From: Asterochloris sp. CNOR1 | Lineage: Eukaryota > Chlorophyta > Trebouxiophyceae > Trebouxiales > Trebouxiaceae | NCBI GenBank assembly: GCA_963969365.1 | Contig: OZ017753.1 | Location: forward strand, 2,356,001 to 2,420,000 | Direction: 5' to 3' | DNA: 64,000 bases | Translations under genes and position numbers: made by a program | The notes under the pieces: model-generated | The model's input: only the letters and a program-made list of their open reading frames with translations | Database searches by the model: none | What the model was told of the DNA's origin: nothing | Part shown: positions 397 to 64,000 of the stretch, piece by piece | How positions within the stretch are numbered: the first letter of the stretch is position 1 | Layout: each line of letters starts with the position of its first letter

Positions 397-3300
397 ATGC
401 GCAGCATCGCTGCCGGTAAGATTGGCAGATTCAGATTGTACTTGACACACCGCACCCAGATCTGCCTGAGGCATCACAGATTGGCCACTTCGTGCGCCAT
501 GCCGGTGCACCTGCAGCAGGTGCAGCTGAAGGACTCTGAGAAGGAGCTCTTCAGATTGCTCAAGAACACCCTGCAGCATGCCAACCTGAGGACAACTCTA
601 AGATGTGCGGGTGGATGGGTCAGGGACAAGTTGCTGGGGAAGGACTCTGTGGACATCGACATTGCGCTGGATGATATGCTGGGCACACAATTTGCAGAGC
701 ACCTCAACGCCTACCTGGAGTCCCAGGTTGGCAGAGCATCAGTCTGTCAGCTATCAGCATCCATGTCAAGTGTACAGTCAGCTGTAAGTGGCTGAAGGCT
801 GCAGCAGGGCCACCAAGCAGAATTGTCCAGTCAGCAGCCGCCTATGAAACACTGCTGTGCCCCTAAGCACTGACCCTGGCACTGCAAGGCAAAGCTAACG
901 AAACACTGCCGTGCCCCTGAGCACTGCCCCTGGCACTGCAAGGCAAAGCTACCCTTGCACCCCCCTGGTGAAGCATGCTCCCTGCCTGGCAGAGTTAAAT
1001 GGCTGCACTGCCCTTGTGAAGGTTGTTTTCTCCCGGACCACTGCAGGGCACTGCCAGTGGCCAAACTGCCCTGCCCTGAGCCCTGCCCCTGACACCGCAA
1101 GGCAGAGCTGGTGGCTGTGCCGTTAATATGAAATGCACTGACACTGCAGGGCACAATCAGAGACCGCGCCTCCACCATAAAGAGTGCTCTCTCCCTGGCA
1201 CTGCAGGGCAAGGCCACCGGCCGTATTGCTGTGGTGCAAGCCAACCCTGAGCAGTCCAAGCACCTGGAGACTGCCAAGGTCAAGGTGAATGAGCTGGAGA
1301 TTGACCTGGTCAACCTGCGCTCAGAGACCTATGCCAGCGAAGCAGCCCACCGCATTCCAGAGATGACTTTTGGCACCCCGGAGCAGGATGCGTTGAGGCG
1401 GGACTTCACCTTCAACAGCATGTTCTACAACATCAACACTGAGCAGGTCAGCCGTCTTGTTGCTGATGCAGCATGTGGGGTGCAGCTTGTGGTTTGCAAG
1501 CCTTGGTGGAGGCATTAGCACTGGGCAGGAGAGGGCTAAGACAAGGCAGCTGCAGCCTGGAAGTGTGTGGGTGTCTCTGCTGGGGGGCCATGCATGTGCC
1601 TGACAGCGCCACTTCCTAGTCCTCTCTAGCTTGTCCCACGGGCTGGAGCAGCCTATCCTTGTAGCTCAGCTTGTTTATTGGAGCAGCAGAACTTGATGTC
1701 TTACAAGTGGCACATGGCACCTTCAACAGCTGTGCAGCACCAGAGCTGTCATCAGGCTGAGCCGAGGCTGCTACTCATGACATGCCATGTATGCTGCAGA
1801 GGCAGCTGCTGCCTGGGTTGCGTGACGCCTGCAGGGGTAACCCTGCTCCCATGATACCCTGACTGAGGCCTGACAATGCTGCCCTTGCCCAAGTCAAGCT
1901 GGGGTCATGAGTCAGTCAAGGTATCTGCTCTGTGCCTGTTCCTGCAGCAAGTGCTTTTCACACTACAGGTCGAAGACCTGACAGGCAAGGGGCAACAGGA
2001 CCTGGCTGATGGCATTGTGAGAACACCGCTGCCGGCACACGAGACGCTTCAGGATGGTGCGGTGCTACTTGTCACTCTACTGCAGCTGTGCTGGTCCCTG
2101 CTTGTCGCGCCTTTTGCAGCATTTGAGCCCCAGTCCCCCTGCACGTGTAGCCTAGTCACTCTTGCAATTAACTAGCCTGGTCACTAAATAACCATTGGGA
2201 CATGGTTTGCGGGGCATTCCAGCACTCCAGTCTTGTGCATGACCTGAAGCAGATTGTTGCACTTGGGGTGCAGTCCTGACAAGGCGGCCTGCCATCTGGC
2301 ATGCCACCATGCCAGGGTGGTGTGGTCTGTGTGGCCCCCCGAGAGTGCTGTGCGAGGTGCGCTTTGCAGCGAGGTTTGGCTGAGCCCCAGCCTCCTCCAG
2401 CCATGGCTCAAAAGCTCCAGCAGCGGACTGGCTGGCTTGGCCATCAAAGGAGCGCTTTGTGTGGCTGCAGACCCCTTGAGAGTCCTGCACAGGTCGGCTT
2501 TGCAGCGAGAGTTGACTAAGCCCAGCCGTCTAAGGGAGCCCTGCGCATGGCTGCAGACCCCCTAAGAGTCCTGCGAGCGGTGCGCTTCGCAGCGAGGTTT
2601 GGCTTCAGGCTGGATGCAGAGCTGGAGGCCGCAGCTTCCAGCCCTCAGGTAAGCTCTGCTGTCTGTCAGCTCCTGGACTGCAGCAGGCCCTGCGGGTGCT
2701 TGTAGGCAGCAGCAGCATCAGCCTGCTCCACTGGTCCATGAGGTTGCTGCTTCTAGCAGGCTGCTGCGTGGCTTGCTTACAAACTCAGAGTCAATGGGAG
2801 GGGATGTGACACGCCCGCAAAGAGAGCAAGCATGCCATGTGGGTTGGTTATGCGTGCTGGGCTCGGTACAGCAAAAGGTAGGCCATGTGCCAGTCCCCGC
2901 CGCCTGAAAGGCTAGGAATCTCCTCCTCCTGCACATGGATTCAAGGCACATCAGACTGCATTGTCCCCTCAGCATTGGGCTGTATTTGTGCTGCAAAGTG
3001 ATGCCCACAGCTCGTCCCTACAGGGACAAGCTGTGGCTATTATGTGGTGCACAGTGACATCGAACAGATGAGATTGCAGGCAATGAGCTGTGGCAAACAC
3101 CTTGAAGCTGAGCTGTGGCACATGCACCTCGTGCTCATGCAACCCTCTCTGTGATATGTGGTGGCACCCCAAAGCATCACCTTGCGGGGAATGAGCTGAT
3201 CGTCGTCAAACTGGACCCAGCTGCCATCGTCCTGCTTGACCCAGGAGACGTAGTGCCCCGAGTCTGCACTGCGCCCCTTGTGGGTCAGCACAGCGCACAG

Positions 3301-6300
3301 CTCGTACTTGCCTGCAGGCCGTGCATGCAGCATAAGTGCCAGGCCTGTGAAGGCAGTGACATAGTGCCACTTCGGCGCTGCGCTCCTTGTGGGGCAGCAC
3401 GGCGCACAGCTCAACTTGCCTGTAGCCGTGCATGCATCTGAAGTGCCATGGTTCAGCTGATATATGCTGTACAGCAAGAAGCTTGAGGCGGGGCTTGCAG
3501 GCACGTCAAAGAGACATATACACAGAGTCTTTATTAGGGCAGAGCTGGCAGGTGCCTGCTAGACTGCAGACACAATTGCTGCAAGCGAGCTTGACAGATG
3601 TCTGAAGCAGGCAGAGGTCTCGGCAAGTTGTCATACTACCTTGAGCCGGGCTTGCGACAGAATGTTGCAGTGCTGTGGCAAGGCAGACTGGTCTACTGCC
3701 CTCCAGCCAAGCCTCCAGCGCTTGGCTGGACAGGCACATTCTCAGTGCTGCATTCGCGATAATCATCCCCATCATCCTCATCATTGCAGCCCACCTGTGA
3801 GCTTGCCAGCATGCTTGCCAGCATCGCTGCTGCTGGGCCCAGCACCAGCATCCTGCATGGCCACATCGCCATCCTGATCCTTCTTTGCTGCTTCTGGGGC
3901 ACCCGTTTGGGCTGCAGGCGCCGGGGTGGCAGCTGCAGTTGCGCTTTCGGCAACTGGCTTGCTGTCAGGCTGAGCACCGCTGCTGGCTTTCTTGCCCGCT
4001 TTCTTGCCTGCCTGCCTGTCAGATTCCTGCACCTGCGCCTCCTGCATCCGGCACAACACCAGTTGTTGGCCTTGGAGACAGGTCTCTAAGGTGCATCAAC
4101 ACCAGGCCAGCAGTGATCAAGCCTCTTGCACCAAGTGCCCACTCTGTGGTGGGCCCTGTCTGCATGTCTGCTTCTTCCCCAGCTGGTAGCACACAAAGCC
4201 GACCTAAGCGCGCAGTGCACAGACCCAGCTCTGCCTGCTATGCCATTGCCTAGCACAGACTGAAGCCTCCTGCAGGACTGCCAGCCTGCCCCATCTAGGC
4301 TGTTGCATGCTTGTGCTCTGTATGTGTGCACCTGCTTGGCTCGCTTGGCTGCTTTCTTAAGGCCAGCCTTGCGATCCTCCTCAGCTGTGAGAGCCTCCCG
4401 GGGGCCGTCCAGGTCCCTCTTGTAGGCATCTGTGCACAACTCGTATGTGTCCAACACAAGAGGGAAGACCACCTGCAGGGGCATGGGCAATTGGGTGGCA
4501 CTGCTGCACAGGGACACTGCTATCAACATGCAACGCATCCATCAAGGCATGATGCAGGGGTTTTGTATACACAAGTTGTTGCCAGGGCCATCACAGCATG
4601 TGCATGGCAGACCATTGCTGATGGCCACCCAACGCAGTCAGCAGCACCAGGGTCTGCTGGGTTGATGCATATGCTCTGCACCTTGCGTACACTAAGCCCT
4701 GCCCCCCCAGACTGATCTCAGCACAACAGTCTTAGGCCCTGGCTGACCTTTCTAAGAATCTTGGCCTTCTGCTGCACATCTGCCTTGTAGTAGAAGCGTA
4801 CCATCTGCACCGTCAGGTAGGGCGGCAGCCTGCTGATGGCGCTGCTGCCAGCAAAGACAACTGTGCGGTTCAGCTGGGCGCTGTGCTTCTCGCGGTCGTC
4901 TTTCAGGCCCAGCTTGATGCCCTCGGTCAGGTGGTTGACCTCCATATTTATGTTGCACTTGAGCGTGTAGCCCACTGTGTCTTCCTGTAATGCATGTAAT
5001 GCTTGGCGCATTACTCAGGCAGCCCCTGACATGTGCAGCACCAAGCAATCAGGGTGCGCAGCCATGACAGCATCCAGCACGACGTCGAAAAGTGAGAGGC
5101 CAATGTGCTCAACACAGGCTGGCCCAAGGATGTGACTTGTGCTAAGGGTGTGGTACCAACACACAGGCTTTGTCAGCCCATGCTGCTACCACTGCAAACA
5201 ATGACGCCAGCCCAGGCTTCGATGATGATGGCGCACCAGGAGCCCACCTCTATGGTTTCCTGGCTCTCCTCGTTGGTTAGCCTGGTGTGGAAACCAATGC
5301 CCATTGTCTTCTGAATGATGGAGTTGGCGTCACCCTCGCCCTCCTGCAGTGCACCAGTGAGTGGCACTGCTTCAGCAAGGGTGGCGGTCTGCAGTTGCTG
5401 ACTCTAATGTGTGCAAGAGACGTGTGTTGCTCCTGTGGTAGTTGCTAGCAGAGGTGCTGTTGGAAGCTGCCACTGTGGCCTCAACTCATCTTGTCTGGGG
5501 GCCCTCACCAGGGGCTCCCCACCTCCAGCAGTGGAACATCTGCTTGGGTGCAAGGCAGCATGCAGGAACAGCTGGGTTCCCACCCTGAGCTGGCCCCTGA
5601 GGGCGGCGACCAGGTGGGGGCAGCTGTACCCGTGCATTTAGCATGGTCAATATGCAGCTCCCTCAACCCTACCTGTCCGGGGGCTGCCCCTGCGGGTGTG
5701 CACCAGCTAGGTCCACATGCACATGCATTCATCAGGCGTGGCACCTGCATGCTGGGCCTGCTCACCGTGAGCTGCCCCCAAAGGAAGTAGATCAGCTGTG
5801 CATGCATCATTCAGGCGGGGCAGTTACTTGCTAGGGCTGCCCACCTTGAGCTGCCCTCTGAGCGTGTACACCAGCTGCGACCAGCACTCCTCGGCGTCCT
5901 GCTGGGAGTAGTGCCCCTCCCGCCCCTGCTGCGCAAATTGGGGAAAGGCCTCCCGCAGCATGAGCAGGAAGCGGAAGGGGTGCACCGGCTGCGCACTGCG
6001 CCGCAGGTCACCAAACAGTCCCTTGGCTGCCACTGTCAGCTTGTGGGCTCCCTGTTGGGCCATGGTCACGCTGGTGGCCCCACCCTCGGGGTAGGTCTGG
6101 AGGGCGGTGCGCAGCTCAGGGATGCGGTACAGGCACTGCAAGGCACCAGAGGAGGATTGGCAGGTGTTTTCAGCACTACATTGCAGGGTGCCAGTGGCTG
6201 GTCTGGCAGGGGGGCAGTGAGCAGCAATGGGTGTTTGGGGCAGCATGAAGATGGGCACAGGCACTGCAGGGCACAGAAAGTGACTTCAGCAGGGGATTCA

Positions 6301-17100: not shown

Positions 17101-19181
17101 TCTCCCCCACCAGCCGCTGAGCGTTCTGCATGTCAGGCGCCTCCATCAGGGCCTCGCTCCCCCACAAGGCCCTGTCATGAGAGCCAGCCTCACTGCTGCG
17201 CCATGTTTCTGCTGGCACCCCCTGACTGGTTGGGGCTGCAATCTCCCCAAAGACTGAAGATCTGCTGTCCCTGGATGTGCTGTTATGAGATGGGGTGCTG
17301 GAGGAGGGCCCATCGTCAAAGAGCAAGGGCATCCTCATGTCCAGGGGGTGCTTCAGGCGGAGCCTGCAGGGACACAGCAATGTAAGCAGAGCAGCTTGGG
17401 GCTGCACGCTTTGAGAGAGAACAAAACCTCTGCAAGTGCCATACAATATATGCGCCACATGAGGCACATGAGCGGTAGCCATCACCAAGCAAAGGTCCTC
17501 GACACTTGAAAGTAAGTCGCCATGAAGGGATGCTCGAGGTGACTCACGTGCTGCGCACTGCAGCCACATGGGGCCGTGAGGAATCCCGCAGGTCCTGCGA
17601 AATCTTCCGCACGGAGCCTGCCTGCGGCTGGGCAGCGTTGCTCTCAGAGCAGTGCAATCCAGCCTGCAACACCCTGAGCAGGGCCTGCTCTGCCTCGTAG
17701 TGAATGAACTCCAGGCACACCAGACAGGCTTGCTGGACGGCTGCTGGCATGCCATTGCTGCAGCAGGCCTTGTGCACCTGCAGGTATGGGAAGCCTGCAG
17801 TGGATGTGCAGTCTGTAGACTTTCCTTTGGGCATGCTTATTCTGCTGCAGCAGCAGACCTGATGCACCTAAAGGAGCAGGTTTGTGCACTAATGACTTAG
17901 AGAAACCATGTGCGGGCAGGTCAGACCCGGAGCACTAGCTTGTGCATAGAGGGGTGCGGCATCTTGGGGCTGCAGTGTGGACATTCCTCATGTCACTGCA
18001 TGCTGGCAGACTGCGGCTTACGCATCTGGCCTATGTCCGGCACCCAAAGCCAAACTTTTGGCAAGCAGCCACTCACCTGTTTCAAGTTTGCCACTGCCTG
18101 TTCCAGCTGAGTGACCAGTTCCTGGATTTGGGCAGCTAGCTGATGCAGGGCTAGCTCAGTCCTGCTGCTGCCATCCTGCTGCGCCCACTCCTCCAGTGCA
18201 GCACACACTGGCTTGCTGGCACGCCGTAGGGCCGACCTGCACAGCAGGGCTGCAGGCTTTAATGCACAGCTCATGCTGTGCTGGCAGCTGTTGGCACAAG
18301 TGCAGGACACTGGCTTGCTGGCACGCCATAGGGCCGACCCCCACAGCAGGGCTGCATGCTACAATGCAGAGCTCATGCTGTGCTGGCAGCTGCTGGCAGG
18401 GGCCTCACCTGTAGATGCAGGCATGCAGGCGCAGCTGCTGCACCAGCGCCTGCTGCAGGCGCTGGATCTCTGCAGTGGCCTTCTGGCTGCTGAACCATGA
18501 GCACTTCCCCTGGGCCGCCTGCAGCAGGGCAGGCAGTGTGAGCGGGCATGGAATCTGCACCTAGCTGCTTGAACAAACACTGTGCCATGCTTCTGCATGC
18601 CAGATGTACCTTGAGGTCATCAATCATGGTCAGGGGCAGTGCTGCTGGACCGTGCTGGCATGCCAGTGCTTCGAGGGACACCTGCATGCACCAAGAGCCA
18701 GCCTGAGCTGAACCTGACAGAGACATAAGCTCAGGCTGATTGCGTGAAGGCCTTGGCTGCACTTTCCTCAGGTGATCAAGCCAGGGTGCACACAATGCCA
18801 GAGGTGCCACTGCAGCAGAGATGCATCGAACTTGCCTTCTGGGTGTGCAGCAGGACGCTCTGCCATATTCTGCCCCAAAGATCCATGTGCACCGGGGACA
18901 ATTCCGCTGGGTACCACAGATACAAATTGAGCTTGTAAGTCGTCTTGGCTGAGTCAGGCTCGGTCTTGTAGGACACCCTGACACCTGTGGGCGGGAAAGC
19001 AGGCTGCCGCAGCCAGGCACAGCAAGGAATCGAGCTTGATGGATGAGCACTCACTCAGCTGTTCCTTGTCCTTCACTGAAAGTGCCCAGCTTGTAGGCTG
19101 GCCCTCCTGTGCAACTGATGGCTGCCATAATTTCTTGAGCACCCAAATGGGATCCAGGAGACGGTTCAAAACCTGTGGCAT
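14169..19181 (-). CDS. Uncharacterised conserved membrane protein of a bacterial-type family
   Basis: Exons with agreeing phases: 19055-19181 (start MPQVLNRLLDPIW), 18984 down to a GC donor after HTQK, about 18600-18680, 18413-about 18500, 18078-18238 (coiled-coil, LAAQIQELVTQLEQAVANLK), further exons near 17560-17720, 17080-17365 and 16690-16868, then 16263-16418, 16118-16194, 15854-15962, 15241-15359, 14832-14957 and 14169-14298 (stop TGA). Two adjacent membrane segments (VGSCVAAIAMGWAILSVYIG; LYAPVFLLCVIVGYVIKDR) are followed by IKDRMKEFGKRYLRPA. The tail holds the pattern FDLSPLCRHM, RFKVEEVECSRAY, RLHLVLQV. From memory this order (N-terminal globular part, paired helices, KDRIKE-like motif, C-terminal strand region) matches large uncharacterised bacterial membrane proteins. 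I know no function. Exons in the middle (16900-17800) are the least certain. Confidence 0.7.
14340..14546 (-). repeat. Decayed copies of the terminal exon edge
   Basis: The true final-exon start (about 14245-14302, plus-strand CCTTGAAGCGGCCGCCGCCA then CAGCACCCTGCACGCAGC) is echoed at about 14345-14402 (CCTTGAAGTGGCCACCACTG then TACCCTGCACAGCC), 14430-14470 (CCCTCAGCACCCTGCACACA) and 14507-14546 (CCCTTGAAGTGGCAGCCACT). All lie in the last intron. Confidence 0.75.
18206..18398 (-). repeat. Young tandem duplication over an exon acceptor
   Basis: Bases 18206-18296 and 18308-18398 are about 90% identical over roughly 90 bp, with a period of 102 bp. The first copy includes the start of the coiled-coil exon and its acceptor (GCAG|GTCGGCCC on the coding strand). 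In the second copy the acceptor dinucleotide is lost (GTGGGGGTCGGCCC), so only one copy can be used as an exon start. Confidence 0.9.
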
Positions 19182-19467: not shown

Positions 19468-22400
19468 TCAGTCTGCCTTCACCTGCCGGTATATGTGCTG
19501 ACAGAACACGCTGGCAGCAAAGTGCCCAATGGCCCCCTGCATAAGGCCAATTGCTATGCAGGCTAGCAAGGAGTAGCCCAGGTAAAACGATATCTGGAAG
19601 AAGCCGCTCATCTTGGTCTTGAACAGCAGGAAGTGGATGCTGTACAAGCCCACGTAAATGCCCACGCTGGCTCCTGAGAAGAAGCTGGTCCACTTCCAGT
19701 GGTAGTTTTCCGCATTGAGCAGGAAATAGGTGGCCACCACGGTCACGCAGGCCGTGACAATGGCCAAAATCAAGAACACGAGCAGCATGAAGCCATAAAC
19801 GTAGTAGACCTTGTAATTCCACAGGCTCACCTGCAGCAGGCAGGTGCTGCTCAGCTAAAGAAGTGCAACATACTGTCTGGCTTGGAAGCGGAACGTGCAG
19901 CTGTCTCAGACGCACAGCATGGCACCGGGGCAGCCATACGTGCAGCTGCAGGCTGTAATCCAGAACAGAGCCCACCCAGAGCGCATGGCTGCCGCATGAT
20001 ATCTTCCCATGCCCCTGATATCTGAAGAGGGGCTGGGCTGCACTCACCCAGAGAAAGTACATCTCAATGAAGATGCTGCCAAATGGTAGCAGGCCGCCCA
20101 TGATGCTGATTACTGCGGGGCTGAGGTACCACTTCTTCTGGGGAATGGGTGAGGGGATACGCTTCACCCTGCAAGATGTAACAGGGCTTCACCAGCAATT
20201 CGAGCCTGCTCTATGTAAACACAAGCTCTCAATCATATGCAAACACACAGCAGACCAGCAGTAGATCTGCTGAAGACAATGAGGAACTGGTGAGATGCCC
20301 GGCTATCTGTTCAATGCACAACCGTCAGCACAGCTCAGCTTTGCAACAACAGCAGACCTGCAGGGGTTGTTGGGCACGCCTGCCCAGTTCCTGCCAATGA
20401 CGGTGCCAAACAGGCACAGGGGCAGGGAGATGAACATCCAGATGAGCAGCAGAACCACGATGCTGCCGAAGGGCACCTGCAGAACAGACACCATAGTCGG
20501 TTGCAATCAGGTCTGGCGATGATGTGATGTCACTGATAAGGGCTGCACTCAGCTCCAGACCCAACCTGAGGCAGCAAACCCCTGTGGCAGGCTATCTCAG
20601 GGAGGCTGCAGGCCGAAGTGGCCTGCTGTAAAGCACCAGTGTCTGCCTGCACCCAGGATGATGCCCAGCTGCCACCACATGATGTCACTTTGGGCGGCTG
20701 CTAAGCACCAAGCATAGGAGCCCACACTGTAGAGTTTGCCAATGCATTGCCATGCAGGAAGCTATGAAAGTAACTTTCCCCAATTAAACTCACCGCTGCC
20801 AAGCTGTGGTACACGATGGCGATGGTGTTCAAGATGGAGGCAATCCCAAAGAACGTCAGGGGGAACACAGTGGCTGTGGCCACCATGGCCTTGATCCAGT
20901 TCTTGCCGTCATTGCGGGCAAAGTAGCCGCCCGAGACGTAGCCGCCCACAAACGATGTGAGGGCATAGCAGACAATGAACACGGTCATGATGCTGCCACG
21001 CTCCTCAAACAGGGTGCCTGCAGAATGTGACATTGCATGTCAGGGACAAGGAGACAGCAGACAGGCGGCATGCAGTCAGAGTGCGGCACTCCTCACAACG
21101 GTGCCTGCAGGGGTTCATGCTTCTGGGCAGGGAAAACAACAGTCATGCAAGCAGGCATGAGTTGGTGCATGAAACAATGGTGCCATGCTCCTCACAGAGC
21201 ATGCCTGAGCGCTGTGTCGCATTAGAGACTAGCACAGTGGCAGACTGCACTACAGCAGCCCTGCAACCAGCCAATGGAGCCCTGCCAGCATAGTGCTGCC
21301 AATGACAATGGACAAGCAGGCTGATGCCTGGTAGAGGCTTTGCAGCGTCAAGCAAACTTTTACTCGTGAACAGGCTGTGGCTGGCCCCAGCCCCTGCTTC
21401 AAAACACAGCTGAAGCTGGCCACTGCCTGCCACAGCTTGCTCGCCGTATCCCACAGGCAGGCTGACCTGCAGTGATACCAATATGCTGCTGAGCACCAGC
21501 AGGGCCTGCTCACAGCATGTTGACACGCTCAGACTCTGCCTGCCCACCACAGTCCTGTGCCTCACAACTCCAGCCGGTCCCTGCCAGACCCTTGGCATAG
21601 TGGCTGATCTTCAGTGGTTACCAAGTTGGTGCAGCTTACCAGCTAGGCCAGCAAGCAGCGCATGCTCAGCAGGTCAGCTCTGCTATCACTCTGGAGCTCA
21701 GGCAGGCTGAGCTGTAACGGTGATCAAGATAGTGCTGACGCAAGAGTGACTGGCTTCCAAAACCCATGGCGCATGTCGCTCCCACCACTACCACAGACAG
21801 CCAAGGCATGTCGAGGCCATGGTGTTGAGGCTGCTGCCTGGGGCAAGAATGGCCTGCACTCCTGATATGCTCAGAAACGTCAATGAGCGACCAGCCAGGC
21901 TGACCGGCAATGGTGATCAAGATGGTGCTGAGCGCCAGCATGGCCAGCTGCACCCCCGTGCCCAGCAGTGCAGACAGCAGCCACAGATGGCGCGGCGCCC
22001 GGAACACATCCCCATGGACCAGTTTCCAGCCAGACTCCTCGCTTATGTCGCGCTCCAGCGACTCCAGGTCGTCATCGTCGCGGGTGTACTTGGCGTAGTC
22101 ATTGCGCAACGTGCGCAGCAGGATCATGGTCACCAGTCCTGCAGGGGCAGCAAGAATGTGCAAGCTTATGGGAGATCTGAGGCGATTGCAAACTGACAGC
22201 CAGCCTGCTGATTGGAACTGCAAAGGGTTGGGGGCAGCAAGCGGTACCAGCAGAGGCCTGCACTGCAGGCGTGCAAGGCCAAAGGACAGGTAATCAGCGC
22301 TGACCAGCAGGGTGGCTGGAGTCTTCTGTCAGCATGAAAGTGCTGCCAGAGGAAGGGGCCGGGATGGCCTGAGTGGTATCAGTGTGCATACATGGCACCA

Positions 22401-26207: not shown

Positions 26208-29200
26208 ATGGCGTACGCAAGCGTTCACGGGGTGCCAAGCCTGGTGGCTCCCATTGGAAAGAGGGCACCACGCAGGCCGAGACAGCCAGATTCTTTCCCA
26301 TCTCGCAATCCTGGTGCCCTGGCTGTACTTGCAACACTGTATCAAGAGTCAGGCACCTCTGTCAGCGAGGAGGAGCGACACAGACTAGAAGAGGCATACC
26401 TCCAGCAAGCGCCCAGTGCAGAGGGCCATTTGGATGCTGTTGATCTTGAGAGGATCTGGTTATCAAGCCAGGCCAGCTCATCAGCCAGCGCAAGAGGCGG
26501 AACACTGCCCAGGGTAAATAGCGGCAGATCGCCGCGAGGCAGCAGGGCGAAGGCCAGGCAGTCAGTGAATGCAGCCGCGGGCCAACGCAGTCAGCGACGC
26601 TGGCAAGCAGAGCCTCAAGCTGTTGAGAGTAAGCGGCAGGTGCCAGCTCGCAGTGAGGACAGGCTGACGGACGCAGAGTTCATTGAGATGATGCTCGAGG
26701 AGATGGAGGCCAATCATCAATCAAAGCGCGTCAGCAGGTAAGCACTAGCTCTGATGCTCCTGTTGTTCACGCCACTATTCATGCACGTTTTGCGCTGCTG
26801 TTGTTGATGCTCTGGTCTGCGCTGAGATCAGGCGCTGCTATGGCAAGAGCCGCGGCAAGAGCGGCTCATGCAGGCTGAGACATATCTTACCAGCTTTTCC
26901 TTTCAGGCAGGCATTCCCCACACAGCACGGTAGCCACACCTGCTGAAGCTGACAGTGCTCTTCTCTGCAGGCGGGCGGCCAGTCACAGCTCAGTCAGCAT
27001 GTTCCTGCGGGACATGGGGGATTTTCGCGTGCTCACTCGGAGGCAGGAGGGCCGGCTTTTCCAGATATACCAGCGGGGCAGGCATCTGGATGCACTGGGG
27101 AGACAGCTCTCGGCTAACGAGCAACAGGTGGGCCGGGGAGGCGGTGGCAGGCGGGTGCAGGCTACAGGTCCTGCTTGTTCAGCATGCTTTGGCTGCACTG
27201 AGCTGTTGTGACAGCCACGAGCAGCACATGCCAGGCACGGACGTGGTAGCAGCTACAGAGCACAGCCTGTCAGGCTGGGGCTGTGACTGCGATCATGTCC
27301 TGTGCCAGCTCAACGTGATGGGGCATGTGATGAGGCAGCAGCCTTGCAGGGTTACGCAGAGGCCTTGCTTGACCTGCCCTGCCCTGGGCAGAAATGGATT
27401 TGCCTGAGCACACGGCGTGCTGGCTGCCACCTCGTTAGGCGCAGGTGCTGCAGCCAAAACTTGTGTACAGCTGGTGACATGGCATGCATGGCTTGATTTG
27501 GCATTGAGTCTGTGCCCTGACATGCATCGTGTGTGCCTGTGCAGCTCCTGGCTCTCAGTACGAAAGCCAATGGCCTTCTGGTGGCGTTCAACATGCGCAT
27601 GGTGTTTGCGATTGCCAGCCGTACGGGCATGAAGGATGCTGCTCTGGATGACGTGCTTACCTGTGGCATGAAGGGGCTTCAAAGGTGAGCCCCGATAGTT
27701 TCTCCAGGCCTGCAGCATTACAGCATGTGGACCCAGTTTGTGCAACATGATTGTCCAGGCTGCTTTTCATGTGTTGGCAGCCAGCATCTGGCTCTTTCCA
27801 GGCGGCATGCAGGGCGTGCATGGCCCTGCAGTCCTCTGCTCTCAAGGCTACTTCCAGCCAAGACACTCAGCCCTGGGTTTTCGACTGCACACCCCCTCTC
27901 CTAGGACTTGAGCTTTATGTCTATCCCTGTGCAGGGCACTGGACAAGTTTGAGGTCAAGCGTGGGTTCAAGCTGTCCACCTATGCGCAGTGGTGGATCAA
28001 ACAGGCCATCTACCGGGGCGCCCAGTCTGGGGCTGTTGTCAGGATCCCAGAGTACATCACCCAGTGGCAGGTGGGCCATGCTGAAGCTGTCAGCAGCACA
28101 TATCTGTCCAGGGAGAAAGCCACTCTGCTGGCCTGCATCAATGAGCCGTGCTGGCTGCACGCAAGCTTGCTCTGCATGCTGGCTCACCAGCAGCACAAAC
28201 CCACTGCCACCCTATGTGCTGGGCTGCTAAGACTGCATGCAGCTGACAATCCCTGTTCCTGCCCAGGACAGCCAGGCTTGCACTGCGCAACACGCTGGTC
28301 GGCAACCTGGTCTGTCTGGGAGTTGGGCCACAGCCGCATGCTTGCCAACTGCCTGTGTGGCACGGCAGATGTGCCACCTGCTGACACTGCACAGCAAGCT
28401 AGTGACGCAGGCCAGCAACCCTTCCTGGGCTGGCAGCCTGGCCCCATCTGCATGCATGCCGCTTGCACAGGCCCAGCTTCATGGCACAGCAAGCTGATGA
28501 CTCAGGCCAGCAGCCCGGCGTGGGCTGTCAGGCCACGCCTGCAGGCACAGCTCTGCCTGTGCTGCACAGCAACACTGCCACTGCACCCCCTGCAGTAAGG
28601 GCGTGCCTGCAAAGGTCATGTTCCATGGACCTGCCTGCGCTGCAGAGCAAGATCCGCAGGGCGCGCTCAGAGCTGCTGCAGGAGAGGCCCTCGCAGGACC
28701 CCTCGCATGACGAGATTGGTGCGCGCCTGGGACTGAAGGGCGCCAAGGTGGCTGAGTTGACAAAGATCGGGCGTGTGCAGTCCCTGGACGCTCCCCTCCA
28801 GGTCAGAGCCACAGCCTCAAGAGACTGGAGACATGCTACACAGCTTGACCACAGGCTGGATCACCCCAGAGCTGAGACCTTTGGAGATGGGGAGTGTTTG
28901 CATGACAGATGTCCAGCATCCGTCTCTGTCAGCCAGACAGTTTTGCTAAGAGACACTAGTGTTGTCAGGGAGGCTGCTGCGAGTTTGCAGCATGCATGAC
29001 TCTCCTGTCTTCACGGCTGCAGGTGGAGAGCGCCGACAAGGTGCACAGGGAGACTTTCTTGGCAGAGGTCCTGGTGGGTGATGCCAATGAGGGGGGGGCT
29101 CAGGACAGCGAGCGCCAGGAACACATCAAACAAGCCATCAACACGGGTGGGCCTTGCTCCGGCTGCATGGTGTAGTGCAGGGCCCTGCACAGTCACAAAT

Positions 29201-38938: not shown

Positions 38939-41825
38939 ATGTTATCCCAACAAAAGTCTGCATGTGTTGCTTGGCTCAGGCACATTCGATCTGTGTACTC
39001 AGAGGCTGCCCCCTCTGTCATTGAGCACCAGCAATTCTACTCCAATGTGGTCCAGAAGGCAGCCATGCAACCAGTGGAAACACTATCACTGCGTCAGGTG
39101 GGACACAGGAGATGCACTGCCTCCAATGTTGAAACAAGCCACCAATGCATCCATTGCCCTGCAGATGCTGCAATTTGGACGTGCAGCGATGTACAATGAG
39201 CGCCTCCTGCTCAAGAGCGCCAGGATGACACAGCGGGAGGTCAGGTGCAGGGCACTGAAGCTCACTTGCTGGACGCGTCTTTGTGCAGGCTGGCAGCACA
39301 TGTCTCTCAAGCATTGCTGCTTGCTGTGCTGCAGCTGCCCAAGCGCCTTGCACGCAGGCTGATGGACCTGCAATTCCTGCCACATCTGGTGGTGATCAAC
39401 CCCCACATCAAGAAGGTCTGAATTTGTCAGCACAGCTTGCATTGTGCTAGGTGATTGTCTTTGTTTCTTCAAAAGTCCTGCCAGACAGAGTGCAGCAGGT
39501 CAAAACAGCACTCATGCCTGTGCCTTGTTCGTTTAAGGGACATGGTGCTTGTGTGATGCGGCGTGTCTTCATCTTCTTGCAGGTTTATGATGCATACAGC
39601 CACGCCTTTGACACTCTGCACAGCATGGCCCCTGTGCAAACGATGGAGCAGAACGCCGAGTTCACAGTCCTGCTCAAGCGACTAGTGGATGACCATGGTG
39701 CGCACCAGCATGGCCTGTTTTGACGAACAGTCCGACAGCAACACCCGCCAGGCTAGAACGCTGCTCAGTCATCATCAGTTTGTCGCATGCCCACTTCAGC
39801 CAGCAGCCTGCCTGCGCTGAGTGTGGCCGCTTCGAACATTTCATGCGCCATGCTGTCGGCTGCGCCTTCTTTGCATCGCTTTCCTTGCATTTAGGGATGC
39901 GCAGACAGGCCATTCAATACTGCCTGCTCCCCTCTGTGGCTGGACACCTTGCTGCCTGCAGCGCCCATGCTGGACGCACTGGCAGCTGGCCTCAGGGAGT
40001 GCGCAGACAAGCCGCTGGTGGGGCCCAAGCTGCAACTGGACGGATTCCTGAACAACATGCTGCGCTCCAGGATCAGCCGCCGCGTGCTGGCTGAGCAGCA
40101 CATCAACCTGGCCAACAAGAGGTGCTTGATGCTGTGACTCTGCTGGTCACTGCTGGCCAGTGTGTCTGCTAGCAATTGCTGATGCCTCCTGGCGCAGCAG
40201 CACATCAACCGGGCCTTCCAAAGCTGCCTGAAACCGTGTGCCATCAGTTGTAAGCTTGCCGACATGAGGTCGCAATCATTTTGTCAACACACCTCTCGGG
40301 GTGCCTAGCATGCTTGCTCAATTTGCACAGAGCGACCTTGCAGTGGCTTGATAACTCAAATGCTTCCTGCTGCACCTCTGCAGGCCAGGCTTCATTGGCG
40401 TCGTGGGGACGGACATCAATTTGTATGATGCCATCGACTTCGCTGCCCAACGAGCTCAGCAGGTGGGCCTGTGCATGATGACCTGTATACATTATTGGTG
40501 CGTAGCCTCAGCAGCATGACTGAACCAGGCTGCGTGCCCCTGCAGGTCTCCACAGAGACGTACGGCAGGGCAGCAGAGGTGGAGGTGACGGGCGACATCC
40601 AGTGCTTGATGCCCTACATCCCCTCCCACCTGGATTACATGCTGTATGAGCTGCTCAAAAATGCCCACAGGTGCATGTGTGTGTGGAGTAGCTGCAGACA
40701 ACGCAAAGCTGTGTTATGTTTCCCCAAGCATATGTCACCAGGTGTTGGCAAGGGCAGCCACGCAAGCATCAGACCCTCAGCTGCTGCAGCCAGCAGCCTG
40801 TTGATGCACAGGCGGGCAACTCCTGTGCAGGCTCCCATCAGCTTAGCTGCTGCGTCATGGCAGACCTGCTATGCTCCCTCCAGTGAAGCCCATTGCGCCA
40901 GAACAGAGACTTGGCTGCTGCTGCAGGGCAGTGGCAGAGCACTTTCCCAGTGACAAGGCCCTCCCTGTCATCGAGCTGCGCATATGTCAGGCAGATCACG
41001 AGGTCAATGTTAGGTCAGGCGTCCTGCTTGTCTGTTAAAGCCTGCAGCATCCCATTTCAGTGCCCTCATCAGTAGAACCCCAGTGTGCAGCACCCTTGCT
41101 GATGTGCAGCTGCTCGCGACATCAGCTTGGGAGGCCATTGCCCAGTGTGCAGAAGGTCTGCTTCTCTGGCAGGCCCCCAGAACACGGCATTGAGGGGGCC
41201 CATGCCGTCATGCAGGATCTCTGACCAGGGAGGGGGCATTGCCAAGGCTGACTTGGACAAGGTCTGGAGGTAAGGGCACTTGAACCCTGCCTTGTGCCTG
41301 CACCCAGCTGGGTTCAGCCAACTTCTTGCAAATGAGCAAGCAGCTGCATGCTGCCCACATGTCTCATGCAACCATCGGCTTCATAAGCTGAGCTGGCAAC
41401 ATTCAGCTGACCCCTGCATGCCGCTTCTGGTGTCTTAGTGGGCCGCTGCTCACAATGCAGATATGGGTACACGACTGCAGCCAGGGTCCCAGAGGAGGCA
41501 GGCTGGAGCGCTGCCCATGGCATCACTGCTGCTGGGGAGGCAGGGGCGCAGTACAAGATGGGTGGCCTGGGCTTTGGGCTGCCCATGAGCCGGCTGTACG
41601 CAGAATACTTTGGTATGTTCAGTCTGTGAGGTGCAGTCACACACCCTGGTGGTATGAGCTCACAAGACCCCCATATGTGATGCAGGGGGCAGCCTGCAGC
41701 TTATATCCATGCCAGGATATGGTGTGGATGCTTATCTCAATCTGCAGCGGCTGGAGGGTGACTGGGAGGAGATGGTGGAGTCCGAGCCTCCTGAACACCA
41801 TAAGCCCTCAGAGTCTCCAGCATGA
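38939..41825 (+). CDS. PDK: Mitochondrial pyruvate dehydrogenase kinase
   Basis: GHKL-fold serine kinase that phosphorylates and inactivates the E1-alpha subunit of pyruvate dehydrogenase in mitochondria. Exons spell MLSQQKSACVAWLRHIRSVY (amphipathic start), QPVETLSLRQ, MLQFGRAAMYNERLLLKSAR, LARRLMDLQFLPHLVVINPH, VYDAYSHAFDTLHSMAP, LRSRISRRVLAEQHINLANK, GFIGVVGTDINLYDAIDFAA, then the N box PSHLDYMLYELLKNAHRAVA, the G1 box RISDQGGGIAKADLDKVW and the G2 box MGGLGFGLPMSRLYAEYF, ending GGSLQLISMPGYGVDAYLNL. The SHL..M.YEL.KN..RAV and ISM.GYG.DAYL patterns match plant PDK rather than branched-chain kinase. The G1 and G2 exons join in phase (41210-41272, 41460-41612, last exon to 41825, stop TGA). 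The N box has His where plant enzymes usually have a hydrophobic residue. The N-terminus is the least certain part. Confidence 0.9.
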
Positions 41826-51082: not shown

Positions 51083-51120
51083 GCTGTTCTTGCACATGTG
51101 AGCTCTGTGACACGCACAAG

Positions 51121-54100
51121 ATGGCAGATGATTTAGAGCGGGCGATCCTGTTCACGTTCGATCAAACGGGCAGGGTGGATGCCCAGCTCAAGGCCAAGGC
51201 TGTCAACTACTGTGATGAGGTCATCCAGAATCCAGCGTGTATGGCATTGTGCATTGAGCGCTTTGGCAGCAGCTCTTATATGGAGGTCAGGTTCTGGTGC
51301 CTCCAGACGCTGCACGAGGTAGGGGCAGCTACCAGGCTATTCAAAGCCAAGAAGGCAGCAGTTCTGTCAGGAGCTGCCCTCCTAGTGACAGCCTCCGCCT
51401 GCAGATTTTGGCCAATAGATACACACCATTGGACAGGACCAGCCTCATGCAGGTGAGCGTCAGGCTGCTCAGAGGAGTGTCAATGCTGGCACAGCATCAG
51501 GGCTGCAACACGATTCCATTATGCTATGCTGCAGATTCGCTCTGCTGCAATGAGCTGGGTCAAGGAGCCAGGTGCTGAGCACCAGACCCCAGTGTTCCTG
51601 CGCAACAAGACTGCACAGGTCGTCAGCAAGCTGGTGCAGGTGGGCTGCACTTGCATCCTGCTCAGCATGTCATCGGCTGGGCACTATCGGCCGATGCGTG
51701 AGGCCTCCAGTGGCGGGCCATGTTGTCCCGCCTGCTTCTTTTCGCTGAGCATACACAGCCCACAGCAATGTTTGCAGCCAGCCCTGCCACTGCTCTGGAC
51801 AGTAAGCACCCCTGCTCCGCCCCATTGATGTCTCGCCCTGCACTATGAGCGCCCAAGCGCTGGCCTGCCCTCTGTGCTATGTTGTTGTCTGGGCATGCTG
51901 TGAGGCCTGTCGCCGCTCTGCAAGCCCCACACTTGTACATGATGTCACCCTGGGCAAATGTCCTGCATGCAGAACGAGTTCCCCAAGCACTGGCCCACCT
52001 TCTTTGATGAGCTGCTGGCCATGCTGTCGGAGGGGCATCGCGCGGTTGACATGTTCTGCCGCATCATGAACAGCATCGACGAGGATGTCATTTCACTCGA
52101 CATATTCAGGTATGCTGCAGTTGCTCCCATCAAGACATGTCTTTGCCAGCGCCTTTGATGTGCCCAACAATCTCATGAGGCCTGCTGCCCGAGAGCTTGC
52201 TGTGCTGTCACGAGCGCTTCACCCTGCATGCCATGTTGCTGGCTGGACAACAAGGAGGACCGTGTCCTTTCTGCTGCTGTCGACTGACAACACTCTCTCA
52301 GTCTGACAAAGCTCACTCTGCCACTGCCGTTGCCTGCTGGTGGTCAGTAGAGGTCCTGCTCAGTGACCTCCCCGTCTCAACAAGCAGCCTGGCCCACGGT
52401 GGCCCTGGCCTCCTGCAGTGCTGACAGCAGTGGTCCTGCTGTCTGGGCTCCACCTCTCAACAGGCTGCCTGCTGCTCACGGCTGCCAGATGCTCACACCC
52501 TGCCCTGCCCTCCCTTGCTGCAGGTCCCAGGAGGATGTCAAGCGCAGCATGCAGCTGAAGGACGCGATGCGCGAGACCTGCATCGGCCGGGTTGCAGACA
52601 CCTGGATCTCCCTGGTGGCAGGCCTGCAAAGCAGCAGCCCCACCCTGGCAGCCATGGTGCTGCTGACCATGCAACGCTTCATCAACTGGATCGACATCAG
52701 CCTGGTGGCCAATGACAGGTGACCCTGCCTGACAGCGGTTGACTGCCTGACAGCGGTTGACTGCCTGACAGCAAGGTTGACACCAGCCTGGTGGCCCAGC
52801 CTGGTGGCCAATAGAAGTGACCCTGCCTGACATCCTGACAAACAGCGAGTGGGCATAAGCCAGGTTGGCGTCAGCCTGGTGGCAAAATCGCAGGTGATTA
52901 TGTTTGGCAACCTGGCTGAGCTCCGGCCTGGCAGCAGCAAACTATGGACACCATGTCCAACAGTGCTTTGTGTGCACTCGCTAGCCCGCCTGACCACACT
53001 TTGCACCAGAATCTTTGCATTGATTTACGTCAGAGGGTTGGGCGTCAGCATGCTGGTTCCTGCCTGACAGCCTGCTGAGGACTTTGCCTGACAGCTGGAT
53101 GCTGCCATTGACAGGGGAATGTGCATATGCAGAGTGCACAACAAGTTGAACATGCAGGCTCTACCAACTTGCCCCTCTGCACAGCACCTGCCACCGAGCT
53201 GACCCGTTCCTCTGCCATGCCTTCCCTCTCCAGCAGCAGCTGATCCACCCTGCATTGCCCTGCAGGCTGGTTTCCCTGCTCTTTGCCATCCAGGCCTCTC
53301 CAGATGAGGCCCTGAAGTGTGCAGCTGCGGATGTGCTGACAGAAATCATCAGTAAGCGAATGGAGGCTGAGGCCAAGCTGCAGCTCATCCAGCAGCTCAA
53401 CATGGGGCACACCTTTGCACAGTGGGCAGGGGGTCTGCCTGTTCAGCCAGACGAGCAGGACCTGGCGGGCAAGTATGCTAAGCTGCTAGCTGCCATTGCG
53501 ACAGGTAAGCTGCCATTTTTGAAAAGAAGTGCCTTACGCCTGGCATCACAGGCGCCAACTGTAGCTGTGGCGATCAGAGAGCATTTCCTGTTTTCTGCGG
53601 GCAGCAAGGTCTATCTGGTGACGATGCCACACTGGGCACAGGCACTGCTGCCTTGTGCCACAGCTTCTTCAGCAGCCCCACAAATTGCCTGCTGCTGCTG
53701 CGGAAGGCTTGTGCAATGAGAGTGGGGCTTGGCATCCACACATATGCGTATGCTGCAGCAGGTCAAGCAATTGCAGCTGCCCCGCAGAGACGCTGGATGC
53801 CTGGAAGAAGCTGGAGAACCACGTCATCAGCCTGTCAGCGGTTGGGCTGGCCATGGGAGAAGAGGGCCTGCAGGTCAGCTGTGCTGCGCATGCTTGAGTT
53901 GCTCCTGGATAGAGCAGGGGCGGCCATGTTTCCTGAAGGGTGCGCTTGGTCTCCGAGGCCAAGCTAGGTGCTGCGACCACCGCAGCTGCATCGGTTTGTA
54001 CTTATCTGAGGCTGACAGCTTGCATCCGCAGCTGTGGGCACCATGTAGATCTCAGCCTGCTTGTGCACATGAACAGCATAGGCTCAGCCAGATGGGCCCA

Positions 54101-60100: not shown

Positions 60101-61983
60101 GACTGGTCTGGGCGGACTGGGCAGCCCCAGACTGCAGCCTCAGGTGCGTTGTCACTTCTGGTGTGTGGGTGTTGCTTGCTGACTGGCGCAGTCAAGTGGT
60201 TGTGCCCCCGTCTGGGCAGGTGGCAATTAGCCCAAGAGTGCTGGCGCATGTGGGCTGCTGACTTTCCAAGTGCTGGCACAGTGGCAGAGCGCAAAATTCA
60301 ATGTGACAGGACCGCCACTGTATTGGCTGACCAGGCAGCCCCACGCGGCAGGTGGACCGCTCCTTTGCTACGTGGGCATCGCGATATATGCTCTGCCAAG
60401 TGACACGTGAAGGCCTGCTCCTGGACTCTGGTCAGCCGAGGACCGGAGGGTTCAAGTGGCGTGCGCATACAGTGCACTGCAGGGATGCTATCGTGCAAGC
60501 AGGTCAATGAACAGCTATGGTCACATGCCACACAAGCCTGGAGCCCCGCGCCAGTGGCAGCTCCGGAGTGGTTCTTCATGAGCATGCAGCCTCTAGACAG
60601 CTTGCATCTCCTCGCAATTGGAGGATGCTGGCAACCATTTCACAATCTGCAGGTCCCAGCCTTGAGCCCCGCGCTAGTGGCAGCACCATTGAGGTAGCGC
60701 GAGAGCAGGGAGAGCTGCAGCGAGCCTACTACTCCCTCTTGCACCAGGTTAGCGGAAGGCTGGAGAAAGTCACATCGTGCGCGTTGCCAAAGGGTGGGCA
60801 CAGTTGCCAGGCAGCAAGACATAGCCTATGTGTGGTGCAGTATTGATCCGCTGATGTTGGCCCACTCTCCACCTCTGCCTCTCCTAGCTACTCCAGTCTG
60901 CACCCAGTCAGTGGCAGGTACAGGTGCTGCTTATGAGCAGTGCTAGTGGTGGCTCATCTCAGCAATAGCCAAATGCGCACTAGCCACAGGCTTTGAACCC
61001 CTCGCAATACCAGCGCAGCCTGTCTGCTGCTCAGAGTGAGACCAGCCTGGTCATCTGCACCATGCAGGTACCCTGCAACACTAGCGCGTCTAGATGCAGC
61101 ATAGACACCCGCCATTGTCCTGTGCTTTGCTGGCATCGCCACTTCTCAATACTGCTGCAGTGGCTGTGCTCTGCCTGGCAACATCTGACAATTTGTCTGT
61201 ACACACAGGCAATGACCCATGGCCTGGCGGACGTGGTGCTGGGGGCCCAGCCTGAGGCGCTGCAGGCTGTGCTGGGGGCCCTGGTGCGAGGTGGCAGCCA
61301 GCATGTGGACCCTGCTGTGCGCAAAACCTGCGCCCAGGCGAGTGCTGTTCAAGAGAGCAGCGCCTACTGCTGCAACACCGTTGCTGGTGCCTTGGCGCAT
61401 TGTGAGGAGGAGAATGGCTGTGAGCACACTCAGAGGCTTTGTGAGAGCACAGGTATCCCAGGGCTGGGCTCGATGGCATGTTGTGCGAGTTGGGATTCCT
61501 GCCTCAACCGGTGCTGTTGTGTTGCCCAGGCTCTGTGCCCAATGTTATCGAATAGCGGGGCCAAAGTTTTGAGCTGCCTGATACAACAGGCCCTCAGATG
61601 CTGTGCAGGTGATGCAGCAGATTGTGGCAGCCGCTGCCAAGGGCGCCCCACAACTGGCCGGGGCTCAGGGGTTCATGATGTCCCAATTTGGGGGGATCGT
61701 CTGCATCAAGGGTCTTCTGGAGGGACCGCTGAGTGGGCAAGATGCTGCCACCAACTCTCTACTGACTGAGCTTTCCCAGCTGCTGGTCAAACTCTATGCC
61801 CTATGCGGCGAGGACCTCCTTCAGCATGTCTGCTCAAATGATCTGCCAGCTGATGTTCAGCAACAGGACTTTGCAGCTGCAATTCGTGGCAGTGACTCCA
61901 AGCAGGTCAAACTTTGTCTGCGTGGCATGATGCAACAGAGACAGAAAGAGCAGCAGGCAACTGCCAAATCAAAACGACAATAG
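51121..61983 (+). CDS. PSD: Exportin-T (PAUSED/LOS1), nuclear tRNA export receptor
   Basis: Karyopherin-beta family receptor that carries mature tRNA out of the nucleus with RanGTP. About 20 exons. The start MADDLERAILFTFDQTG (51121) and MEVRFWCLQTLHE match plant PAUSED. Later exons: ILANRYTPLDRTSLMQ; FPKHWPTFFDELLAMLSEGH (51992-52109), VDMFCRIMNSIDEDVISLDI; VADTWISLVAGLQS and FINWIDISLVANDR (52525-52721); LVSLLFAIQASPDEALKCAA (53267-53505); ETLDAWKKLENHVISLSAVG; QQIVQQLLPAVLRCLCSDLD (54344-54514); ELFVLFRNLCKLCPDEAVAF (55344-55484); AVECAVNLLYNLGEGAAEEL; SSHRLVALILMESYVRYYR; ASRACYLLCRAVKLLRSSLR; LYAFEAAGLLLGQEELPAED; LDAITRVSKGFNSTL; LFHRM; IECLGQNLLPCVPPTLEVLM (59891-60147); ELQRAYYSLLHQ; DPAVRKTCAQ; and the final exon 61606-61983. 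Two introns use GC donors (after 55060 and 61343) with matching phases. Boundaries around 56930-57340 and 59274-59500 are approximate. Confidence 0.9.
52735..52898 (+). repeat. Echoes of an exportin-T exon donor
   Basis: The exon end and donor at 52688-52732 (CATCAGCCTGGTGGCCAATG then ACAG|GTGACCCTGCCTGACAG) recur as CACCAGCCTGGTGGC at 52781-52795, CCTGGTGGCCAATAGAAGTG then ACCCTGCCTGAC at 52799-52830, and CGTCAGCCTGGTGGCAAAAT at 52870-52889. The short phrase CTGCCTGACAGCGGTTGA is also repeated in between (52726-52770). In the copies the donor AG|GT is altered or displaced. Confidence 0.85.
57662..57720 (+). repeat. Decayed copy of an exportin-T exon start
   Basis: GGCTGCTGGCCTGCTGCTGG then GGCAGCAAGGGG (57668-57702) resembles the exon at 57835-57870 (GGCGGCTGGCCTGCTGTTGG then GGCAGGAGGAG). 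The copy lies about 165 bp upstream in the preceding intron. Confidence 0.6.
59681..59822 (+). repeat. Two echoes of the IECLG exon acceptor in exportin-T
   Basis: The exon starts GGGCTGCAG|ATCGAGTGCC at 59882-59900. Upstream copies are GCGCTGCAGATGTGGTGCCT (59683-59702) and GAGCTGCAGATGGGGTGCCT (59793-59812), at spacings of 110 and 90 bp. Both keep the CTGCAG acceptor, so they could act as cryptic splice sites. Confidence 0.8.
60536..60570 (+). repeat. Echo of an exportin-T exon start
   Basis: GCCTGGAGCCCCGCGCCAGT (60536) repeats the true exon sequence GCCTTGAGCCCCGCGCTAGT (60659), with about 80% identity over 36 bp and a 123-bp period. The true exon joins in phase to the preceding exon (TCA G|GT CCC); the copy lacks an acceptor. 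Confidence 0.8.
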
Positions 61984-62160
61984 TTGTGGTCTGAACCCAA
62001 TCAACACAAATGCGGACAGCATGCATTTATCTGAATTCTGCCCCTGCAGTCTGACTGCTGTGGTGCCATGGTGTGGTTGCCAAATGGCATGTGGAGAAAG
62101 GGGCACAGTCAACTTTGTTGGACCAGAGATGACCTGACGTCTGGAGACAGCATAACTAAT

Positions 62161-64000
62161 CTACATCTGCTTCTGAGAGCTTACGCTTCTGCTTCTTCTT
62201 TGGGGGCTTGCGACCAGAGCCTTTGCTCTCAGGCTGCGGTACTGCAGAGACGTTGTTGTTCTCGCCTGTATGGCAGATTGTAAGGCCTATTTCCTGTTGA
62301 TACATATGGCAGCTAAGCCTTGATGGTTTAATACGGTCAAGGACAAACAGATGCTTGGCTTCTGGCTTTACTAGTGCAAGCTTGTGCTACTCACCTCCTC
62401 CAGCAGAAGCTCTTGCTTTGGTGGCCTTGCCACCCCGCCTATGGGTGGGGCACAGCCACTTGCCTCGCGGCACATCATCCAGGCCAGCGCAGTGCACGTG
62501 CATTGCTGTGGTGCAGCCTGCCTTGGCCTGCAAGCAGCAGTGACTTCTTCATGGGGGCCTCAAGCATGGCTCTGCCAAGACTGGTGTTGGCAAAGCCGAT
62601 GAGACTGACAAGGCAGGCAAGCCAGGCTCACACATGCTAAGATAGGTGCAATCTGGTGCAGACTGCCCCTTTGCTGCATGCGTCAACCCTGGCCAAGGGA
62701 ATAGCAAGTCCACCCTAAGTCCACCCTTTGCAAGAGGCTGCATGGTACTTGCAACCAGGCCTGGCGCCTACATCTCGGATCAATTGTCTTAAGCACAGCA
62801 CAGCAGATCTCACCTTTCAAGGTCTTCTTACCCAAATTCTGGTCTTCTTTACCAAAACGGGTTTTACATTTCACCCCCCTCACAGCACAGCAGGTGTGCC
62901 ACCGTTTCCATGCTTCCCCGACAACACAGCAGGCCTCACTGCCCCCGCCTCACAACAGGAAGATCCCATTTTTCTTTACACAGCACAGCAGGCCGCACTG
63001 TTGTCACGTCCCCACAGCACAGCAGGCCCCACACTGTCTCCACTCACCTCGCAGCACAGCAAATCCCCTGGCAGCCCGCACACAGCGCAGTCAGCGTCCC
63101 AGTCATCCTGGGGTGGGGGGGCATCGCTGCCCGCCCCATCTGTCTCCTCCGGGTCAGGAGTGCCCCCCCGCACGCCAGCGTTGCCCAGGCGGATCTTGAG
63201 CTTGGGGGCGGGCCCCTTCACCGCCTTTGCGCTAGCCCTGCAGGCGAGGAGGAACTTGGAGGAACAGTTACTTGGGGCTGCAAAGCTCTATGGCATTCCC
63301 AAGGCCACTGACGGCCCACTAAAGCAATGCTGATGCTGACAGGCTCTGGGCAGTGCATGCGGCTGTGCAATTGCATGAAGGCAAAGGAGGCACCCACCTT
63401 GAGCGCTTCTTGGAGCTGGCAGGCGGCTCAGCAGCCTCGACAGCCGCAACAGCTGCAGGAGCTGCCTCGATCTCCCGCTCCCGCTTGGCACCCGAAGCCT
63501 GCACCATCAACGCCGCCACATGAGCGCGGCAGGCTATGCTTTCCAGATTGCAGTGCTGCAGACAAGATAAACCCGCAATGGAACTAACGACATTGGAGCA
63601 CGGGATAGTCGAGCCTTTGCTTCAAGTCCAGCCTTGTTCCCTTGTGCAGGAAGGCTCCCACCTGCTTGGCCAGCTTAGCCTTGCCTCCCTTGGCAGCTGC
63701 CTTTAACGCGGGGGCGATGGGGTCGGCATTCTTCATCTGGCGGGCTCGCCGGTTGTTCAGGCGCCGCAGCAGGGGCAGGGCCCTGCAGACATGTGCAGCC
63801 AGTCACAAGGTGTGTCGGGGTCTGTCACACGGGTGCAGAGCCATACAGCGCAGTCTGTGAGGGCATGGGGATGCTCTGGCAGACGGCAGCTTGCATGGGA
63901 AGCTGTGCCTTGCCCCACAGCTTGGCACAGTTGGCCAGCACATTTGCTGCACTGCCCACCATTGATAAGACACGGCCTGCTGGAAGCAGGCCAGAAGGTC
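62161..64000 (-). CDS. PHD-finger protein, C-terminal part (partial)
   Basis: The gene enters from the right edge and ends at TAG 62161-62163. Exons in gene order: a candidate near 63850-63975 (VLSMVGSAANVLANCAKLWG); about 63662-63784 (LPLLRRLNNRRARQMKNADP then AKLAKQ); about 63400-63500 (GAKREREIEAAPAAVAAVEA, SSKKRSR); about 63053-63240 (PAPKLKIRLGN, DDWDADCAVCGLPGDLLCCE); about 62394-62538 (TTAMHVHCAGLDDVPRGKWL, CPTHRR); and 62161-about 62258, with a nuclear localisation signal (RKPPKKKQKRK). The CxxC...LLCCE and HxxC...P.GKWLC halves form one C4HC3 PHD finger split by an intron, so the protein probably binds histone tails. The specific family cannot be decided without the N-terminus. It is convergent with exportin-T; the stops are 177 bp apart. 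Confidence 0.8.
62882..63050 (-). repeat. Four echoes of the PHD exon end
   Basis: The exon end DLLCCE and its donor lie at 63044-63072 (plus-strand CACCTCGCAGCACAGCAAAT). CAGCACAGCAGG-type copies occur at about 62882, 62925, 62982 and 63016, at spacings of 34-57 bp, each followed by a short C-rich tail. This is the tightest array of this kind in the window. Confidence 0.75.

Follow-up and report, generated by a model that had tools for sequence, protein, structure and literature searches.

Some introns in one stretch of the Asterochloris sp. CNOR1 genome carry degraded copies of the sequence that straddles their own exon-intron junction, which raises the question of whether splice junctions are themselves prone to duplication or take part in a more general process. 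The stretch analyzed, called the window below, comprises the 64,000 nucleotides of contig OZ017753.1 from position 2,356,001 to 2,420,000 (G+C 58%), in a genome of 56.4 Mb and 21 contigs. The lichen alga Asterochloris glomerata is described as having a 56 Mb genome, with a G+C content of 56-62% across 98% of it and 9 introns per gene (PMC6652019).

The window was analyzed together with 200 kb from elsewhere in the genome (twenty 10-kb stretches of contigs 1-10), for a total of 264 kb, and a further 50 kb from contigs 11-15 was held out. Genes were modeled with a purpose-written hidden Markov gene finder self-trained on the 264 kb, and the models contain some fused genes and tiny false exons. 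They yield 666 introns with a median length of 194 bp, 153 in the window and 513 in the sample. The splice signals learned, donor CAG/GTGAG and acceptor CTGCAG/G (slashes mark the junction), are both strong. The acceptor is very strong in these self-trained models of window and sample, with T (91%), G (92%) and C (98%) before the AG, and the third intron base at the donor is G in 79%. Pfam matches span the whole profile for UCH in UBP6 and EMP70 in TMN, and include PolyA_pol in CCA1, sigma-70 regions 2 and 4 in SIG, Xpo1 in exportin-T, a PHD-type finger in the last gene of the window and, barely above the cut-off, MTS in the MTQ2-like gene. The gene at 18236, taken as the membrane-protein gene of the first-pass annotation, has no Pfam match. 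Score thresholds vary by test (90, 100 or 110), and each count below carries its own.

Exon edges and their own introns

Up to 80 exon bases and 30 intron bases from each edge were aligned to the remainder of the same intron, and introns of other genes trimmed to equal length and non-adjacent introns of the same gene served as controls. The test took 339 of the 666 introns, those of at least 90 bp with both flanking exons of at least 40 bp. Own-intron matches scoring at least 120 were found for 19 of 339 donor edges and 20 of 339 acceptor edges, compared with 0.27% of 3343 (donor) and 0.15% of 3330 (acceptor) other-gene pairings and 0.08% of 1256 same-gene non-adjacent pairings on each side. 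At score 60, own and control pairings did not differ clearly. As the first-pass annotation had proposed, exon edges in these introns do resemble their own intron beyond both kinds of control.

Such copies are less common than that annotation, with its "introns full of" them, had suggested. An own-junction copy at score 100 is present in 35 of 666 introns, where 22.4 are expected by random placement given the pairs (these counts and the placement counts at score 100 skip junctions of exons shorter than 20 bp). Above score 100, the affected introns number 12 among the 153 of the window and 23 among the 513 of the sample, and repeat copies occupy between 6.4% (score 110) and 8.8% (score 90) of intron bases. 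The unit does span the splice site in the 12 window introns, as had been claimed; SIG, one of the genes originally named, has no such copy above threshold and contributes intron-intron copies plus one edge match of score 80. Copies had also been said usually to worsen with distance from the exon, but at five multi-copy junctions identity falls in one, is equal in one and rises in three. A mitochondrial dehydrogenase-kinase gene (Pfam BCDHK_Adom3), absent from the genes first listed, has an own-junction copy as well.

Window features with junction copies and other local repeats. Periods are in bp, percentages are identities, and the second column gives the junction with an own-junction copy.
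Gene and site	Junction	Coordinates	Strand	Description
CCA1, first intron		846..1229	+	Young 54-bp tandem pair, 846-897/900-951
CCA1, first intron	1149	880-1069/1039-1229	+	Older pair, extends to acceptor at 1149
CCA1, exon start (from 2557)	2556	2320..2604	+	Two decayed copies in preceding intron: farther 2335-2381 (85%), nearer 2440-2517 (78%); unit single in genome
UBP6, acceptor side of exon 3181-3311	3311	3247..3448	-	Intron copy 86%, period 111; unit single in genome
UBP6, donor side of exon 5845-6135	5844	5722..5877	-	Intron copy 74%, period 79
UBP6	6135
Unnamed gene	9270
Unnamed gene, acceptor side of exon 18077-18236	18236	18205..18398	-	91% copy, period 102; AG of decoy altered; unit single in genome
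TMN, donor edge of exon 21905-22138	21904	21454..21973	-	Three intron matches: periods 192, 296, 438; 68, 72, 82%
SIG		28389..28531	+	Intron-intron pair 28389-28436/28484-28531, period 95, without exon bases
MTQ2-like, donor edge of exon 30814-30900	30813	30631..30856	-	88% intron copy, period 167; decoy donor intact; unit single in genome
Large gene, glutamine-rich coding stretch		33240-33919		Exon-exon repeats
Mitochondrial dehydrogenase-kinase gene (38849-41629), donor edge	40121	40082..40238	+	75% copy, period 102
Exportin-T, donor edge	52718	52693..52883	+	Copies at periods 86 and 99
Exportin-T, intron		52725-52809		Perfect 18-bp minisatellite and a 13-bp one beside copied donor edge
Same gene model as exportin-T		60535..60735	+	Exon bases 60658-60735 copied in intron, period 123
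PHD gene, donor edge	63047	62871..63061	-	Weak copies, score 102, short-repeat-rich

Local direct repeats and their units

Direct repeats were scanned for at offsets of 12-512 with low-complexity sequence masked, and at control offsets of 1000-1500, 2000-2500 and 3000-3500. Laxer gap costs gave long random alignments at the control offsets, so stricter scores and masking were adopted. In the 264 kb, 125 diverged pairs score at least 110, compared with 0 in all three control bands; at score 90 the counts are 205 and 3.7-7.8. The overall excess was replicated in the held-out 50 kb, with 44 pairs at score 90 versus 0, 2 and 1 at the control offsets.

These matches almost certainly do not come from a dispersed repeat family or from plain low-complexity sequence. 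Short repeats are abundant in the PHD case and in part of the exportin-T case, yet the excess above was obtained with masking applied, and all four units searched are single in the 56.4 Mb, in a search that passes over simple repeats and very common words. The first-pass annotation had named two outcomes that would count against it, exon edges matching no better than introns of unrelated genes and a single dispersed element family, and the observation passes both tests. Insertion of introner-like elements or transposons needs many similar genomic copies and is refuted for the four units, each being single.

Repeat periods lie mainly between 60 and 130 bp in the 264-kb scan; they cluster, as had been noted, over a broader range than the 80-125 bp first given. 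Among 192 pairs (held-out set included), 76 have an alignment that covers 70% or more of their spacing and can be called clear tandems. In these tandems unit size peaks at 50-90 bp, with 72 of the 76 below 130 bp, in line with duplications made by break repair (mostly smaller than about 125-200 bp). Old units shorter than about 40 bp fall below the score threshold and are under-detected. In nine of ten young tandems the match stops at the unit end, which suggests, for this small number, that flanking microhomology is absent; in the other it reaches five bases further, and some of the ten have a few unmatched bases between the copies. In the remaining 116 pairs the alignment falls short of 70% of the spacing; simple tandem duplication predicts this only after erosion, and it counts against the explanation favored below. 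These pairs may represent tandems worn by erosion or, alternatively, short templated copies. Some are highly identical, for example 30631-30689/30798-30856 in the window.

Placement relative to splice junctions

Duplications are not confined to junctions. They occur in all compartments at frequencies near those of random placement, with a moderate excess at junctions. The 125 pairs divide, with random expectations in parentheses, into 32 intron-intron (32.5), 14 exon-intron (16.1), 10 exon-exon (8.6), 40 junction-intron (28.0 ± 4.7), 14 junction-junction (9.8), 7 junction-exon (13.4), 7 intergenic (11.7) and 1 intergenic-junction (2.3) pairs, and other classes are empty. At score 100 (155 pairs), a junction-crossing copy has its partner in its own intron in 42 pairs (23.0 ± 4.5 at random) and in its own exon in 4 (14.0 ± 3.6), while 73 pairs include any junction-crossing copy (58.6 ± 5.6, P 0.013). 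These results keep their direction at scores 90, 110 and 140, with P 0.04 at 110 and 0.087 at 140 for any junction-crossing copy. Random duplication combined with selection against added coding sequence predicts both the own-intron excess and the own-exon shortage. The moderate excess of junction-crossing pairs overall goes beyond that prediction and remains to be explained.

Exon-exon pairs at score 90 are mostly in frame, the start offset being a multiple of three in 14 of 17. Two features of the placement count against the favored explanation: some exon-exon pairs come from one glutamine-rich stretch near 33.2-33.9 kb, and intergenic pairs fall below random expectation.

Exon and intron columns of the pairs differ in conservation. 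Across the 32 pairs in which both types of column were numerous enough, and with splice-core columns left out, exon columns are 76.5% identical and intron columns 71.7%, the exon value being higher in 21 of the 32 (p = 0.011). Pairs with an exon twin are expected to stay recognizable longer, since just one copy decays freely, and in a simple simulation junction-crossing units were 1.15-1.65 times more detectable, the factor varying with exon conservation and with the exon share. Most of the junction pattern can be accounted for by selection and by the longer time for which a copy next to a conserved exon stays detectable; the own-intron excess, at 1.8 times random, exceeds the simulated advantage, which counts against this account.

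That surplus is one reason to consider junctions as true duplication hot spots, where nicks or RNA-DNA hybrids linked to transcription and splicing might, for instance, provoke duplication. The excess of pairs with any junction-crossing copy points the same way, both in the main set and in the held-out set (20 versus 14.4 ± 2.8). We nevertheless consider hot spots unlikely: intron-intron pairs alone are already as frequent as random placement predicts, conserved exon twins yield part of the junction excess, and donor and acceptor sides are alike (24 and 18 own-junction records at score 100). Also in the held-out set, pairs of a junction-crossing copy with its own intron (6 versus 4.7 ± 1.9) are not significant alone, and own-exon pairs number 0 versus 1.9 ± 1.3. 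None of the 35 held-out edges on each side reaches score 120, and at score 100 the counts are 1 of 35 and 4 of 35, versus 2 of 475 and 3 of 475 in controls.

Fate and origin of the copies

The splice dinucleotide is retained in 29 of 42 own-junction copies, and their five splice-core bases are 83.5% identical, compared with 77.0% for pairs overall. Such retention would be expected if the duplicated splice sites or exon parts served alternative splicing. This reading is improbable, as six kinds of non-splice words in the copies are nearly as well kept (74.1-83.4%) and identity by codon position shows little pattern (78.1, 75.7 and 75.0%). That lack of pattern gives no indication of alternative exons in the intron copies, nor, by codon-position identity, of the coding constraint in an extra copy that marks mutually exclusive exons. 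Faster loss of decoy splice sites is likewise unsupported, given the core and word values above. Decoy sites, many with an intact core, adjoin real ones, which calls for caution from gene predictors.

Introns might also originate when a piece of exon bearing AGGT is duplicated in tandem (the Rogers-Hellsten route), in which case donor and acceptor flanks of one intron should resemble each other. A test that took 416 of 646 introns found a slight excess of resemblance at score 60 (22 versus 13.9 and 19 versus 15.2 expected) and at score 80 (3 and 1 versus 0.6 and 0.6). At score 100, 0 of 416 introns matched on either side, and birth by duplication is rejected for nearly all of them. The rarity of donor flanks that are like the acceptor flanks of the same intron indicates few if any newborn introns, and we regard this origin as highly improbable for the introns. 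Intron gain by tandem duplication has been described (PMC4974935), with cases in Drosophila (PMC2891723), and in potato RdRp an upstream intron-exon structure was duplicated (PMC4974935). The present copies share with those events (Hellsten 2011; potato RdRp) a tandem duplication that involves splice signals, but here an existing intron is lengthened and no new intron is made.

We conclude that the intron copies are most likely ordinary remnants of small tandem duplications that occur genome-wide and survive best inside introns. Break repair as their source, with selection sorting the products at junctions, is the probable explanation. Short tandem duplications with units of about 50-130 bp would probably arise during fill-in and rejoining of staggered DNA breaks, and many would span a splice junction because genes are dense and introns short. 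An extra copy that can be spliced out would leave the protein unchanged, and the duplication could persist; one that adds exon sequence would mostly be removed by selection unless in frame. The intron copy, presumably neutral, would then decay freely, and its conserved exon twin would keep the pair recognizable longer. This order of events is reconstructed from one genome. Tandem exon duplication followed by decay of one exon also leaves a worn copy of an exon part in the next intron. The algal cases are alike in that respect and differ in their units, which are fragments of about 100 bp containing a single junction rather than whole exons.

The break-repair mechanism is suggested for this alga by likeness to duplications in rice and mouse. 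In rice, tandem duplications are reported as 70% of small events, declining above 125 bp and falling to 5% by 200 bp (PMC7971508); in mouse stem cells, short tandem duplications are reported to stem from breaks with protruding ends that are repaired by end joining (PMC5730883), and Pol alpha-primase has been named in connection with such duplications (PMC8355091). As in patch-mediated or staggered-break repair (rice, mouse cells, and Arabidopsis as cited there), the duplications are mostly under about 130 bp. Like the break-repair duplications described in PMC7971508 and PMC5730883, they have little flanking microhomology when young, are genome-wide and are subject to selection within exons. 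Unlike in rice and mouse, they are decayed copies read from one genome, not polymorphisms or repair products.

The proposal of tandem duplication across junctions, with one junction used while the other copy decays, fits these data; its extension to a habit of junctions that known intron-growth routes do not predict has weak support. Duplications lie in all compartments and close to random placement, and short tandem duplication, a described common source of insertions (PMC7971508, PMC5730883), does predict homology to the neighboring exon. No description of exon-edge copies in green-algal introns appears among the open-licence literature matches listed (titles and abstract openings). The first-pass annotation recorded a real footprint that is not restricted to junctions and whose cause is probably of a known kind.

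A broader reading, that intron length is supplied chiefly by short tandem duplication and not by transposons, with introns as sinks for break repair, junctions over-represented and exon edges as conserved references, is doubtful at present. If it is true, duplication rate and decay would be measurable from one genome. Copies anchored to exons might assist in dating intron growth. On the favored explanation, a common error of DNA repair can shape gene structure, and splice junctions sort the resulting duplications: those that place the added copy in the intron are harmless, and those that place it in the exon are harmful.
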